A DNA stretch of 64,000 nt from Pseudidiomarina aquimaris (GTDB taxonomy: Bacteria; Pseudomonadota; Gammaproteobacteria; Enterobacterales; Alteromonadaceae), in NCBI RefSeq assembly GCF_003987395.1, contig NZ_PIPT01000001.1, positions 496,001-560,000 on the forward strand. Reading direction: 5' to 3'. Positions 8,093-61,340 of this stretch are shown here, one piece after another. The notes beneath the pieces were generated by a model. The model was not told where the DNA came from, did not search any database, and saw only the letters and a list, made by a program, of their open reading frames with translations. The position numbers were made by a program, and so were the translations under genes. The stretch's first letter is position 1. Every line of letters begins with the position of its first letter.

Positions 8093-9184
8093 TTAAAGCC
8101 AGCGAATATGCACGGTGATTTCTTCACGATCGTGATAAAGCTGTTTGGCCTGTAACTCAAACTTACCGCGGCCATGCTCTTGCAAGGTTTCTTTGATGTG
8201 CTGTAAATACTCTGCCACGGCAGCGTAGCGACGTTTCATTGGCAACTTCAGATTAAAAATCGCTTCTTTACAGTCTTCTTGTAACAGCCAGTCAGTCATT
8301 AGCTCGCCGACACGCGCAGGCTTTTCGACCATGTCACAGACCAACCACGTCACATTTTTCTTCTTCGGCCGATATTTAAAACCGTCCTCTTTTATGTGCT
8401 TCACCTGACCGGTGTCCATTAAAGCTTCCGCCATTGGGCCATTATCGACGGCCTGTACCATCATGCCACGGCGGACAAGTTGGTAGGTCCAACCGCCGGG
8501 CGCAGCACCGAGATCAACTGCGTTCATGCCGGATGAGATCCGTTCTTCGCGCTCATGCGCTGGCACAAACACTTGGAAGGCTTCATCCAGTTTTAGGGTC
8601 GAGCGACTTGGCGCATCACTTGGCATACGCAAACGCGGAATCCCCATCAGCCACGGCGACTGGTTAAAACTGTAAGAAAAGCCAATCACCACTTCACTAT
8701 TGCTTATAAAAAAGGCGTGCAAGGTGGGACGGCGATCGCTTTCTTTTGCGGTCATCCAGCCAATTTGTCGCAAGCCTTGACGCAACGGTACCGTGAACTT
8801 ACGACAGAATTTGGAAAGTTCCTTACCGACATTCGTATCTGGGGTTTCGACGCGTAAGGAGCCGGCCGGTTTAATGCCAGCAAAGTTTTCTTCTATCGCT
8901 AAATCCAACAACCCAAGTTGCAACGCGGACACGCGATCTTGACTTGGCAAGTCTTTAACTTCCGCTAGAATGGCAATAAATTGGCGGGTAAAAATCAGCT
9001 CCTGCAGGAGTAATTTTTTGGCTAAATGCTCTGCTTCTTCGGCCGCACAGCGGTAGACCACATAACCTTGCTGCTGCTTGGTCTGACAATAACCATAGCT
9101 TCCTAGGTGGGCGGCTTTATCTTGGATTTCCGCCGCACAGTCACTTTCAAAGCCAGGACGGCAATAAGCAATAATTCCAGTCAT
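8093..9184 (-). CDS. rlmM: 23S rRNA 2'-O-ribose C2498 methyltransferase RlmM
   Basis: S-adenosylmethionine-dependent enzyme that methylates the 2'-O of C2498 in 23S rRNA. The 363-residue protein starts MTGIIAYCRPGFESDCAAEI, like E. coli RlmM, which has a THUMP domain first and a Rossmann methyltransferase domain second. The SAM-binding motif VDLGAAPGGWTYQLVRRG lies near residue 225, and the catalytic K-D-K residues are expected within the TWLVCDMVEKP and NLKLPMKRRY segments. The ATG at 9184 is preferred over the TTG one codon earlier. Located near gcvA as in E. coli. Confidence 0.95.
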   Translation of the reverse strand: MTGIIAYCRPGFESDCAAEIQDKAAHLGSYGYCQTKQQQGYVVYRCAAEEAEHLAKKLLLQELIFTRQFIAILAEVKDLPSQDRVSALQLGLLDLAIEENFAGIKPAGSLRVETPDTNVGKELSKFCRKFTVPLRQGLRQIGWMTAKESDRRPTLHAFFISNSEVVIGFSYSFNQSPWLMGIPRLRMPSDAPSRSTLKLDEAFQVFVPAHEREERISSGMNAVDLGAAPGGWTYQLVRRGMMVQAVDNGPMAEALMDTGQVKHIKEDGFKYRPKKKNVTWLVCDMVEKPARVGELMTDWLLQEDCKEAIFNLKLPMKRRYAAVAEYLQHIKETLQEHGRGKFELQAKQLYHDREEITVHIRWL

Positions 9185-19387: not shown

Positions 19388-19406
19388 AAAAACTCCTAAA
19401 CATAAA

Positions 19407-19530
19407 AGCGTTGCTTGATGTTCGCTATTTGCATGCTCACTGCGTTCGCTTTTCGTTGAAACAAAAATCAAAAACGCTCTAGGTTTAAATGGTTTAAACG
19501 AAGAACGAACAGCGAGGAACGAACAACGCT
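19407..19530 (-). repeat. dispersed heptamer-rich intergenic repeat, copy 1 (inverted, long)
   Basis: Copy in the thiolase/liuR gap, opposite in orientation to the copies near 57.5 kb. It holds TTCGCTATTTGCATGCTCAC and CTGCGTTCGCT, the complement of the AACGCAGTGAGCGTGCGAAT segment seen at 57539-57560, a GTTTAAAC centre at 19492-19499, and a terminal GAACGAACAGCG run. It lies between the LiuR-type box and the thiolase start, so it would be in the thiolase mRNA leader if transcription begins at that box. Confidence 0.6.
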
Positions 19531-19544
19531 CTGCGCTTTTAACC

Positions 19545-19560: not shown

Positions 19561-19605
19561 CTTGATTTAAGCTTAACGCTCTACCACTACCGAATGCAAG
19601 CAAAA

Positions 19606-20025
19606 ATGAACGATACCACCACCTACAGCATCGGCGAATTGGCACGGGAATTTGACATTACCACCCGTAGCATTCGCTTCTACGAAGATCAGGGCCTACT
19701 GACACCGAGTCGGCAGGGACAAACGCGCCTGTACACCAATAAAGACCGCGTGCGCTTGAAGCTCATCTTGCGTGGCAAGCGCCTGGGTTTTTCACTTGCC
19801 GAAACCAAGCGCTTGTTTGATCTGTATGACATGGAAAACAGTAGTGCTCGACAGTTACAAACCATCTTTGAGCTGATTGATGAGAAGCGTGCTTCGCTAC
19901 ATCAACAGCTGGAAGACATCAAAGTTATTTTAGTGGAGCTGGGCAACCTCGAAGAGCGTTGTCGTGATGAGTTAAACGAGTTGCAAAACGCCGCAGCCCA
20001 ACCAGCCAAAGTTAGCCAGGAGTAG
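19606..20025 (+). CDS. liuR: MerR-family regulator LiuR
   Basis: A 139-residue MerR-type regulator: the winged helix begins [20 protein letters not shown] with [20 protein letters not shown], and a coiled-coil effector tail of about 60 residues follows ([20 protein letters not shown]). It lacks the cysteines of metal-sensing MerR proteins. As first gene of the leucine operon with a LiuR-type box upstream it is most likely the autoregulating LiuR, which in other gammaproteobacteria represses liu and ivd genes. An ATG at 19594 is an alternative start. liuA follows two bases after the stop. Confidence 0.88.
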
Positions 20026-36331: not shown

Positions 36332-36333
36332 AT

Positions 36334-36400
36334 GCGCTATTCGCTATTCGCTGTTTGATGTTTGTTTCAACAAAGAACAAACAGCGAACATCAAACAACG
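36334..36400 (+). repeat. dispersed heptamer-rich intergenic repeat, copy 2
   Basis: Starts 3 bases after the proS stop. GCGCTATTCGCTATTCGCTG is followed by TTTGATGTTTGTTTC, a short centre, then AACAAACAGCGAACATCAAA and CAACG, which largely complement the first arm. It ends exactly where the A-run of the proS/gpt terminator begins. Shares the heptamer style and length with the copies at 57.5-57.9 kb but lacks the GTTTAAAC centre. Confidence 0.6.
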
Positions 36401-36430
36401 AAAAAGCCTCGCCGAAGCGAGGCTTTTTTT
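36401..36430. terminator. bidirectional terminator between proS and gpt
   Basis: AAAAAGCCTCGC (36401-36412) pairs with GCGAGGCTTTTT (36417-36428) around a CGAA tetraloop, followed by more T's. A-run on one side and T-run on the other allow it to serve proS (plus) and gpt (minus), whose stop codon begins at base 36432. Confidence 0.92.
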
Positions 36431-56852: not shown

Positions 56853-57476
56853 ATGAAAAACTTCCTAGTTAAATTGGGTTTAATTTTGTTCGTCGTTGTC
56901 CTTATACGTCCAGTTTCGGCAAATGTCTCACTGGTCGTGCTCGGCGATAGCCTGAGTGCCGGTTACGGCATGTCACAAAAAGAGTCATGGGTAGGCATCC
57001 TACAGCAACGTTGGCAGCAGACCTACCCCTCTATCACGCTCGTCAACGCTAGCATTAGCGGTGACACCACCCAAGGTGCGCTTAATCGCCTCAATGGCGT
57101 AATCAAAACCCACCAACCCGATGCGGTTTTCGTTGAATTAGGCGGTAATGATGGCTTACGTGGCTTCACCCCGATGGCGATTAAATCTAATTTGTTACAA
57201 ATCATTGAGCGCTTGCAAGAGGAAGGCATTAAAGTTGCGGTGAGTCAGGTGCGAATTCCGCCGAACTACGGCCGTCGCTACAGCGATATGTTCGCGGATA
57301 TTTTTCCAGACGTGACGGAAAGCACCGATACACTGTTGATCCCATTCTTTATGGAACAGATTGCGGTCAAGCCTGAATTGATGCAAAACGACGGAATTCA
57401 CCCGAATCGTGAGGCGCAAGACGATATTGCGGACATTATGGAGCCGCATCTTCTAGAATTACTAGGAAAAGGCTAA
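56853..57476 (+). CDS. tesA: periplasmic acyl-CoA thioesterase I/lysophospholipase TesA
   Basis: GDSL-type esterase, 207 residues, exported to the periplasm by a signal peptide (MKNFLVKLGLILFVVVLIRP, cleavage probably after VSA at residue 23). Nucleophile S33 is in GDSLS (31-35); GGND (97-100) supplies the oxyanion asparagine, and D180/H183 in NDGIHPNREAQ complete the triad. It hydrolyses acyl thioesters and lysophospholipids. No ribosome binding site is visible in the 20 bases before the ATG. Confidence 0.95.
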   Translation: MKNFLVKLGLILFVVVLIRPVSANVSLVVLGDSLSAGYGMSQKESWVGILQQRWQQTYPSITLVNASISGDTTQGALNRLNGVIKTHQPDAVFVELGGNDGLRGFTPMAIKSNLLQIIERLQEEGIKVAVSQVRIPPNYGRRYSDMFADIFPDVTESTDTLLIPFFMEQIAVKPELMQNDGIHPNREAQDDIADIMEPHLLELLGKG

Positions 57477-57485
57477 AAACTAAGA

Positions 57486-57570
57486 GCGATGTTTGCTATT
57501 TGCTGTTTGATGTTGGTTTAAACAAACCACGAAGAGCGAACGCAGTGAGCGTGCGAATAGCGAGTAGCGT
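57486..57570 (+). repeat. dispersed heptamer-rich intergenic repeat, copy 3
   Basis: Begins GCGATGTTTGCTATTTGC, then TGTTTGATGTTGGTTTAAAC, an AACGCAGTGAGCGTGCGAAT module, and ends AGCGAGTAGCGT. The two ends can pair with several G-U pairs. Lies between tesA and the third tRNA-Glu gene; as read from the tRNA transcript it would be a trailing hairpin. Confidence 0.7.
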
Positions 57571-57581
57571 TTTTGGAAATA

Positions 57582-57657
57582 TGGCGTCCCCTAGGGGATT
57601 CGAACCCCTGTTACCGCCGTGAAAGGGCGGTGTCCTAGGCCTCTAGACGAAGGGGAC
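57582..57657 (-). tRNA. tRNA-Glu(TTC), third of three
   Basis: A 76-base cloverleaf with 3' CCA encoded. Acceptor GTCCCCT pairs with AGGGGAC; anticodon loop CTTTCAC gives TTC; T-loop GTTCGAATC. Sequence is identical to the two upstream copies and nearly identical to E. coli tRNA-Glu. Confidence 0.97.
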
Positions 57658-57673
57658 CCTGGACTACTGGAAA

Positions 57674-57757
57674 GCGATGTTTGCTATTTGCTGTTTGCTG
57701 TTGGTTTAAACCAAGAGCGAAGAGCAAACGCAGTGAGCGTGCGAATAGCGAACAACG
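57674..57757 (+). repeat. dispersed heptamer-rich intergenic repeat, copy 4
   Basis: Best preserved copy. GCGATGTTTGCTATTTGC at the left faces GCGAATAGCGAACAACG at the right, which pair apart from A/G (U-G) changes. The centre TTGGTTTAAACCAA (57701-57714) is a perfect 14-base palindrome, and the AACGCAGTGAGCGTGCG module follows. Sits between the second and third tRNA-Glu. Confidence 0.75.
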
Positions 57758-57769
57758 TTTTTAAATTGT

Positions 57770-57845
57770 TGGCGTCCCCTAGGGGATTCGAACCCCTGTT
57801 ACCGCCGTGAAAGGGCGGTGTCCTAGGCCTCTAGACGAAGGGGAC
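57770..57845 (-). tRNA. tRNA-Glu(TTC), second of three
   Basis: Identical 76-base copy, 188 bases from the third copy. Anticodon TTC in CTTTCAC, CCA encoded. Part of the Ala-Glu-Glu-Glu transcript. Confidence 0.97.
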
Positions 57846-57865
57846 CCCGGACAAAAAAACTAACT

Positions 57866-57932
57866 GCGATGTTTGCTCTTTGCTGTTCGCTGTTGGTTTA
57901 ATCAAACGGCGAACATCGAATAGCGAACAACG
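57866..57932 (+). repeat. dispersed heptamer-rich intergenic repeat, copy 5
   Basis: GCGATGTTTGCTCTTTGCTG then TTCGCTGTTGGTTTAATC and, on the right, GGCGAACATCGAATAGCGAA followed by CAACG. It lacks the AACGCAGTGAGCG module, so it is the short version (67 bases). Lies between the first and second tRNA-Glu genes. Confidence 0.7.
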
Positions 57933-57942
57933 GTTTTGAAAG

Positions 57943-58018
57943 TGGCGTCCCCTAGGGGATTCGAACCCCTGTTACCGCCGTGAAAGGGCGGTGTCCTAGG
58001 CCTCTAGACGAAGGGGAC
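57943..58018 (-). tRNA. tRNA-Glu(TTC), first of three
   Basis: Identical 76-base copy, 27 bases downstream of the tRNA-Ala gene and 10 bases upstream (in transcription sense) of repeat copy 5. Anticodon TTC; CCA encoded. Confidence 0.97.
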
Positions 58019-60750: not shown

Positions 60751-60769
60751 CTTCCCTTGAAATTCAAAA

Positions 60770-60824
60770 GCGATGTTTGCTATTCGCTGTTCGTTGTTTG
60801 TTTAAAACCAAAACAAAACACACG
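60770..60824 (+). repeat. dispersed heptamer-rich intergenic repeat, copy 6 (left half)
   Basis: Starts 19 bases after the second tRNA-Val with GCGATGTTTGCTATTCGCTG, then TTCGTTGTTTGTTTAAAACC. The right half is replaced by AAAACAAAACACACG, so it looks like a decayed or truncated copy. Confidence 0.6.
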
Positions 60825-60827
60825 TAG

Positions 60828-60846
60828 CCCGTAGTTCTACTACGGG
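60828..60846 (-). terminator. possible terminator of the uvrB operon
   Basis: CCCGTAG (60828-60834) and CTACGGG (60840-60846) pair around TTCTA and overlap the stop codon of the DUF2919-like gene. On the minus strand a T-rich stretch (TGTGTTTTGTTTTGG) follows after a short gap. Not a textbook U-run, so the call is weak. Confidence 0.35.
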
Positions 60847-61340
60847 GCAGACCATCCCTTATCGCTATGTTTGTCGCTTGCTAATAGCTGAAAAAACCTT
60901 TTCAGATGCCGCGAATAAAGCAGCAGCCAGAAAGCCACTAACCAAGCAAAAATAATAAATGCCTTTGCGAAGGCAAAGTGTGGCCAATTACTGGCAACCA
61001 AGCTTGCTAACAAAACACCATCGGCGATCCAGCTCGCCCACAATAACCATGGCGCGATTCGCGCAAACCTAGGAACCCACTTAGGCAATTTGGCTTTCAT
61101 TTGGGTAAGCATGACCAACACTGCCAATGCCGGCAAACCAACACTCAGCGTCAGCACGAACTGTTCAGTGTTGCTATAGAAAAACTGCAATAAGCGGCTG
61201 CGATCTTCCCTGAACGTAAGCGAAATTATCCAAGCGATATAACCGCGCAGAAATAGTGCAAGTACGAACACCAAAGCAAGCGGTGTCCGTAACTGTCCAT
61301 CGTTGGTTAAGTAGCGCTCATCGCCGAACTGAAGTTGCAT
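60840..61340 (-). CDS. DUF2919-like integral membrane protein
   Basis: A 166-residue inner-membrane protein with about four hydrophobic segments (PLALVFVLALFLRGYIAWII, FVLTLSVGLPALAVLVMLTQ, WLLWASWIADGVLLASLVAS, FIIFAWLVAFWLLLYSRHLK). The start, DERYLTNDGQLRTPLALVF followed by RGYIAWI, matches the DUF2919 pattern seen in Vibrio and Shewanella. Function unknown. It starts two bases after the uvrB stop, so it is co-transcribed with uvrB. Confidence 0.7.
   Translation of the reverse strand: MQLQFGDERYLTNDGQLRTPLALVFVLALFLRGYIAWIISLTFREDRSRLLQFFYSNTEQFVLTLSVGLPALAVLVMLTQMKAKLPKWVPRFARIAPWLLWASWIADGVLLASLVASNWPHFAFAKAFIIFAWLVAFWLLLYSRHLKRFFQLLASDKHSDKGWSAP

Follow-up and report, generated by a model that had tools for sequence, protein, structure and literature searches.

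Pseudidiomarina aquimaris carries a dispersed, high-copy family of intergenic repeats, at an estimated 60 sites or so, that are built from degenerate heptamers in an inverted arrangement. Our leading reading, which we put forward tentatively, is that the repeats are REP/MITE-like, non-autonomous tracts at gene borders whose heptamer core is constrained at the DNA level by a putative reader. As far as the open-access literature that we searched shows, the family is not in print: probes from the repeats had no literal match there, in keeping with an earlier reading of the sequence alone (the sequence-only reading), which had not recognized a named family.

A pattern of three tandem GNTRTTB heptamers had 249 matches across the genome, while the reversed control pattern had none, and BLAST with copy 1 against the whole genome gave 56 matches. 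The dispersed intergenic family that the sequence-only reading had proposed from six copies is thus borne out, and it is high-copy. The estimate of about 60 sites is 249 divided by 4.2, the matches-per-site ratio of the stretches that we read. Across 457.6 kb of these stretches, which were chosen mostly around matches, we found 75 arrays of at least three units, none of them mostly inside called genes, and 88 arrays of at least two units, of which 3 lie mostly inside called genes. Matches are present in 20 of the 26 Pseudidiomarina genomes and range from 1 to 249 per genome; the reversed control pattern is also frequent in three genomes of the genus (G009, G016, and G023). Of 394 genomes from the order, 114 contain at least one match, but none outside the genus has more than 30, and the control pattern likewise matches in many of these outside genomes.

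The window, by which we mean the whole 64,000-nucleotide stretch that was analyzed, contains all six of the copies first noticed; all are intergenic according to our own gene-calling script (rather than a published caller), and one of them is only a half-copy. Three are interleaved with three identical tRNA-Glu(TTC) genes on the minus strand (57582..58018). Element 1 (57484..57574, plus strand) lies between a tRNA-Glu gene and a gene ending at 57476, which we take to be a tesA-like esterase. Its left arm reads GATGTTT GCTATTT GCTGTTT GATGTTG, its center is GGTTTAAACAAACC, and a small module (57536-57554) sits in its right arm. Elements 2 (57671..57765, plus strand) and 3 (57864..57938, plus strand) lie between tRNA-Glu genes; element 2 has the module in its right arm (57724-57742), and in element 3 it is absent. 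Element 4 (36332..36404, plus strand) is in a gap between convergent genes, with its first heptamer 4 nt past a TAA stop codon and a terminator-like hairpin coming next (by eye). Element 5 (19404..19536, plus strand) is in a divergent gap and has degenerate arms, with the module inverted and in the left arm; a fuller copy is found in the orthologous gap of P. homiensis. Half-element 6 (60766..60806, plus strand), 3' of two tRNA-Val genes, consists of a left arm, with the right arm missing. Near it is a GTAG-type REP palindrome (60824..60847, plus strand), which belongs to a separate family. A 17-nt probe had 14 matches, where both arms of one copy may each count, as compared to 2.08 expected, and none of 100 shuffles reached 14.

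Two details of the original description hold for only some of the copies. The proposed palindromic center, GTTTAAAC, occurs in some copies, but the copy at 57866 has GTTTAATC and the one at 36334 has GTTTCAAC. The optional module, AACGCAGTGAGCG, is found in the copies at 57486, 57674, and 19407 (inverted and with one change) and is absent from the remaining three. In the predicted fold it is self-paired, and among the 26 elements that carry it, it is in the left arm in 12 and in the right arm in 14. An Rfam search of the window, at the gathering score, found no family that matches the repeats; it identified only six tRNAs and a tryptophan operon leader (RF00513, 44513-44609), which was barely above the threshold.

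The heptamer unit emerges without any assumed pattern. When we compared lags of 3 to 14 in intergenic DNA, 7 and its double, 14, were enriched: the window species has 43 tracts at lag 7 and 19 at lag 14, and every other lag has at most 2 tracts per species. Lag-7 tracts were found in 8 of the 11 species sets, and the three sets with none are small. The 106 lag-7 tracts from these 8 species give a single heptamer, GNTRTTB. The units are tandem and intergenic, as in other heptameric intergenic repeats. The core of the heptamer is positions 1, 3, 5, and 6 (G.T.TT), with frequencies of 0.92 to 0.99 when the 106 tracts are pooled. Position 5 is the least strict of these: the frequency of T is 0.50 in P. 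donghaiensis (with 0.42 C), 0.72 in genome G002, and 0.79 in P. marina. Positions 2, 4, and 7 vary by species, which gives the heptamers "dialects": P. marina has mostly GTTATTC, P. tainanensis GATATTA/G, P. piscicola GATGTT and GCTGTT, and the window species GCTGTT and GTTGTT. A full copy is about 96 bp long and has two inward-pointing arms, each with about 3 to 4 unspaced GNTRTTB units, around a palindromic center and the optional mini-hairpin module. The consensus is AAAAGCGTTGTTTGCTATTCGCTGTTCGCACGCTCACTGCGTTCGCTTTTTGTTTAAACAAACAACAAACAGCGAATAGCAAACAACGC followed by a T-rich end; it was built from 12 module-bearing copies, out of 15 copies of the window species that passed our filter. The outer ends are A/T-rich (AARAGC/GCTYTT). 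Some arrays are much longer, including one with 13 units of GATGTTC and others with 15 and 19 units.

The tracts are also polarized with respect to genes. All 26 multi-tract gaps begin with a T-rich tract (in 2 of them, a further T-rich tract follows an A-rich one). Excluding 6 of the 106 tracts that are near the middle of the gap, 88 of 100 tracts point inward from the nearer gene edge, as do 36 of 43 tracts in single-tract gaps, which is the gene-edge polarity of the Xanthomonas/Nostoc heptamers discussed below. The rule is weakest in gaps between two plus-strand genes (15 of 21). In five places, over 120 nt separates the two arms, so the inward rule does not require a tight hairpin. The distance to the gene is often characteristic: at 16 of 45 gene-end edges, an arm starts 4 to 5 nt past the stop codon, and at 13 of 54 gene-start edges, one starts 15 to 19 nt ahead of the start codon; both counts include orthologs from three species. 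We take the latter spacing to be just outside the ribosome-binding site. At edges within 6 nt of a repeat, the stop codon is TAA in 15 of 18 cases, as compared to 767 of 1,196 genes; repeat ends near TAARAGC touch the stop codons. (ERIC elements also supply stop codons.) Twenty-five of 40 sites lie between tandem genes, and the 39 sites in gaps of at least 60 bp (24 tandem, 8 divergent, and 7 convergent) are distributed like all such gaps (chi-square test, P = 0.37). By gene order there is no enrichment at gene 3' ends, and divergent gaps also hold sites.

To see how the elements evolve, we compared orthologous gaps among three species (the window species, P. homiensis, and P. sp. CB1), leaving aside those flanked by a tRNA on each side. 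The window species has 83% DNA identity to each of the other two (across one 1.4-kb gene). From the window species to P. homiensis, the array was kept at 15 of 21 sites, 5 gaps had REP-like palindromes instead, and 1 had something else; from the window species to CB1, the array was kept at 11 of 20, with REP-like palindromes at 5, a shorter array at 3, and something else at 1. From P. homiensis to CB1, the corresponding counts were 8 of 13 kept, 1 with REPs, 2 shorter, and 2 other. All arrays were kept from P. homiensis (14 of 14) or CB1 (9 of 9) to the window species, and 8 of 9 from CB1 to P. homiensis, with REPs at the ninth. (The REP classes are observations among the pairs listed.) GTAG-type REP palindromes (GTAGCCCGTRGTTCTACYACGGG) share gaps with heptamer elements, both in the window (60824-60847) and in orthologous gaps (L098-L137), and in P. 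homiensis and CB1 they sometimes lie inside the heptamer elements or replace them.

The arrays that are kept do not stay the same. The number of units varies between orthologs, and at one site (G000:C1, near 163,220) the interior is inverted between the window species and P. homiensis and also between CB1 and P. homiensis (by eye). At two sites with flanks that are 94 to 99% identical, P. homiensis has heptamers and CB1 has a different hairpin sequence. This second hairpin family (GTTCGTCCGTGCTACGCACTGTTCG and relatives) replaces heptamers in CB1 at L118 (about 19597-19816) and L124 (about 8774-8927, G021:C1). At some sites elements were lost by deletion; CB1 has no elements at the first and third tRNA-Glu sites, where the ends are ragged. 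At the first tRNA-Glu site, nine of twelve species have heptamers, which are of the GATATTG type in four species, the GTTATTC type in three, and the window type in two (for P. piscicola, this covers the last 250 nt only). Thus, sites persist while their sequences turn over. Elements at the tRNA-Glu sites are more similar within a species (0.60, 16 pairs) than between orthologous sites in different species (0.38, 74 pairs), although the three sites are neighbors and local duplication may add to the similarity. Across all gaps, similarity was 0.49 within genomes and 0.39 between them.

Evidence for constraint on the DNA word comes from the rates of change in orthologous heptamers of the three species. 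Core positions 1, 3, 5, and 6 changed at 0.018, 0.023, 0.033, and 0.020 per site, while positions 2, 4, and 7 changed at 0.276, 0.214, and 0.245 and other aligned intergenic bases changed at 0.130. These rates are from 392 heptamers, with both directions counted and 7 heptamers dropped; because the source heptamers had to match GNTRTTB, the core rate is partly lowered by ascertainment. Even if the comparator is conservatively set to half of 0.130, the core deficit is still about threefold (P = 9e-8, with halved counts). The rates at positions 2, 4, and 7 may be inflated by misregister of the alignment by whole units. These positions are free but use restricted alphabets, with almost no change to G at position 2, mostly A or G at position 4, and mostly C or T at position 7. 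If units were redrawn from the family pool (using the frequencies in the window species and P. homiensis, computed by hand), we would expect differences of 0.57, 0.43, and 0.56 at these positions. The observed rates are 0.48, 0.50, and 0.44 of this expectation, as if about half of the units had been redrawn. Such redrawing alone would not hold the core near 0.02 against mutation, so we infer that the core itself is constrained.

This pattern of variation suggests that the DNA word is kept rather than the hairpin. In the mechanism that we propose, slippage, together with copying from other members of the family, would rewrite resident copies, while the G.T.TT core would be held because something reads double-stranded DNA at a 7-bp pitch. 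The putative reader could be a DNA-binding protein of the host, or it could be the enzyme responsible for copying the elements. The RNA fold would then be a by-product of the inverted arrangement, and the absence of SbcD from most of the genus would be permissive.

Another possibility, which seems doubtful to us, is that these are classical MITEs or REPs: a transposase acting in trans spreads the copies, which then decay in place, and the core is the end that the transposase binds. The estimated 60 copies with a common consensus, the inverted ends, the fixed polarity, and the ends that touch stop codons all fit this explanation, and like bacterial MITEs, the elements are short, high-copy, and have terminal inverted repeats. 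Among 110 edges that we checked for the TA flanks of an IS630-like MITE, T is at position -7 in 37% and A is at position -6 in 77%. However, the core is kept in resident copies, unlike in dead insertions, and among the ortholog pairs listed there was no clean filled and empty pair with a target duplication; across the three species we saw deletions, REP-bearing gaps, and in-place replacement. Also, in 1.25 Mb of stretches from three species (including 457.6 kb of the 2.8-Mb genome of the window species), we found no autonomous element with the same ends within 4 kb, and just five pairs of such ends lie 120 to 4,000 bp apart. One of these wide pairs encloses a gene for a GNAT-like acetyltransferase (L096:8088-8759, with heptamer tracts on the left and right). 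We considered whether this might be a transposon with a gene inside, but in this sole case the enclosed GNAT gene looks like one of the host's own, with a half-element on either side.

The sequence-only reading had suggested a REP/MITE-like origin. The copy number, size, and closeness to genes agree with this, but the evidence speaks against a REP driven by a RAYT. GTAG/CGTC REPs are RAYT-linked. The heptamer elements lack a 5' GTAG/CGTC tag; the ends of their consensus are AARAGCG(T/A)TGTT. A RAYT-like Y1 transposase is present in the genome, but the gene (L047:1300-2250, G000:C21) lies between inverted palindromes of its own, GAGGGCAGCCCTC (by eye), and in the 3.3 kb around it there is no array of three heptamers. 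More broadly, Y1 transposases show no association with heptamers: Y1_Tnp is found in 14 of 20 genomes with heptamers and in 5 of 6 without (and not all Y1_Tnp proteins are RAYTs), and genome G012 has 178 heptamer matches but no Y1_Tnp. We therefore rejected a RAYT-driven REP.

Simple-sequence dynamics alone, that is, slippage of heptamers plus strand switching in gaps that are indifferent to frameshifts, with no recognition, would be an unlikely explanation. The arrays of up to 13, 15, and 19 units, the orthologs that differ in unit number, and the interiors that flip fit it. Many bacteria have an excess of heptamers, and slippage over about 7 nt has been proposed, at least in the portions of two papers that we drew on (PMC4692102 and PMC4679880). 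But slippage leaves four near-fixed and three variable positions across the genus unexplained, along with the polarity and the anchoring at gene edges. Furthermore, correction by strand switching predicts that the two arms of an element should be alike, which is not what we see (below).

We also considered SbcD as a factor. SbcD is a subunit of a nuclease that cuts palindromes or long hairpins. It is present in just 2 of 26 genomes of the genus, as compared to 50 of 76 other genomes in the family (Fisher's exact test, P = 1.5e-7, ignoring shared ancestry); of the 24 Pseudidiomarina genomes that are missing it, three are less than 90% complete. However, six genomes lack both SbcD and matches, and two (G004 and G010) have both, so SbcD cannot explain the copy number within the genus, and its absence is permissive at most. 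Among the genomes from elsewhere in the family with no SbcD above the cut-off, seven were also covered by the heptamer search across the order; of these, five have 0 or 1 match, and the other two (G297 and G317) have one array each.

It is very improbable that the repeats are primarily functional RNA hairpins, such as bidirectional terminators, intercistronic stabilizers, or RNase sites, under structural selection. Three copies do have strong predicted folds, with z scores of -4.9, -6.7, and -5.6 for the plus strand and -1.4, -3.7, and -2.7 for the other strand; the outer ends are A/T-rich, and the 25 of 40 sites between tandem genes could be co-transcribed. On the other hand, gene order shows no excess of sites at gene 3' ends, the strand of the window's tRNA-Glu genes (minus) gives the weaker fold, and terminator-like hairpins adjoin several copies (by eye).

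The sequence-only reading had argued that transitions compatible with G-U pairs preserve the fold, but structural selection failed all three of our tests: G-U excess, covariation of the arms, and sense versus antisense folding. First, a transition between paired arms that reads as G.U on one strand reads as A.C on its complement, and at tandem-gene sites the sense strand has 46 G.T and 43 A.C mismatches (25 to 15 in gaps between plus-strand genes and 21 to 28 in gaps between minus-strand genes). Second, for the 26 of 49 elements that can be oriented by the module, arms from the same element scored 11.19 of 14, as compared to 11.32 for shuffled arms, and 3,953 of 5,000 shuffles were at least as good. 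When the 49 elements were not oriented, the arms matched less well than expected (mean score 12.2 versus 14.8 when shuffled; with 39 of the 49 kept, 4,988 of 5,000 shuffles were at least as good). This raised the idea of selection against perfect palindromes, which we rejected: orienting by the module removed the deficit, so we read it as due to random orientation of an asymmetric consensus. With RNAalifold on 12 copies, just 1 of 19 pairs changed on both sides, and the covariation term was -0.34 of -12.68 kcal/mol. That pair, the sole compensatory class (A-U in 8 copies and G-C in 4), is inside the module; with this one exception, the covariation expected of a structured RNA was not found. 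Third, in the folding-energy test, which kept 45 of the 49 elements due to a length limit, the sense strand was more stable in 14 of 33 tandem-gene elements (P = 0.44). In 18 of 26 elements, the better fold belongs to the strand whose 3' arm contains the module (P = 0.004), for which we offer no explanation; at 18 tandem sites, that strand is sense in 8 and antisense in 10. Given these results, we no longer take structural selection to be the main explanation, although a weak effect may have escaped a sample of 26 elements. Carriage by phages or plasmids was rejected, since one 31-nt pattern had no exact match in viral contigs and one copy had no match in plasmids at E = 1e-5, at the sensitivities used.

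Among the closest known parallels are the GGGAATC and GGGGA(T/C)T heptamers of Xanthomonas and Nostoc, whose G-quadruplexes were studied by Rehm et al. (PMC4692102). As described in the accessible part of that paper, these are also unspaced 7-nt units in intergenic regions, with the repeat strand pointing from the gene edge into the gap; the flanking genes are constant across species while length and sequence vary, and Xanthomonas has some inverted pairs. Unlike those heptamers, the Pseudidiomarina units are not G-rich, and they have regular inverted arms, a consensus of about 96 bp, and the G.T.TT core. Since they lack runs of G, G-quadruplexes cannot be the general reason for the edge polarity. 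In the marine Beggiatoaceae, TAACTGA is likewise a many-copy intergenic heptamer; in the text available to us, its repeats are direct, apart from a single inverted case, and mostly lie upstream of starts, and related heptamers are rarely repeated (PMC4679880).

Other families are similar in some respects. ERIC/IRU, YPAL, RUP, and NEMIS-type MITEs are also about 100 to 200 bp, dispersed, and mostly intergenic; according to the sections consulted, their transcripts have long stem-loops and most have terminal inverted repeats (PMC2229807). Unlike those MITEs, at least as that source portrays them, the Pseudidiomarina elements have arms of tandem heptamers and keep a core while the free bases turn over. 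GTAG REPs, as excerpts of another paper describe (PMC3733652), are palindromic and high-copy and supply stop codons; the heptamer elements resemble them in these respects, touch stop codons, and coexist with them in these genomes, but differ in having no GTAG/CGTC tag and in that another palindrome accompanies the Y1 transposase gene. For reading at a 7-bp pitch, the parS site of plasmid pSM19035 offers an analogy and nothing further, as its sequence is different: its heptads are 7-bp sites that adjoin without spacers, in either direct or inverted orientation, and are bound by the ribbon-helix-helix (RHH) protein omega/ParB, and the part of the report that we used states that four or more are needed for full activity (PMC9499535). 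The 9-bp RptR repeats, from a paper whose available text names Pseudidiomarina (PMC12255303), are unrelated.

By analogy with omega/ParB on parS, the tracts might be genome-wide arrays of double-stranded sites at gene borders for a protein with a 7-bp pitch, with the bases that it does not contact drifting into dialects. Xanthomonas and Nostoc, with their G-rich heptamers, would then use further dialects of one shared principle for marking gene borders. We consider this broader idea quite unlikely. Heptamers also occur in the STRRs and tRNA-Leu introns of cyanobacteria, and the over-representation of intergenic heptamers has been noticed in several groups of bacteria, with no agreed explanation. 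The Pseudidiomarina family provides position-specific rates, with four near-fixed and three free bases, and a polarity rule that is independent of G-quadruplexes. Together with related species that have or lack copies at the same sites, these should allow slippage, transposition, and recognition by a protein to be separated by ordinary experiments.
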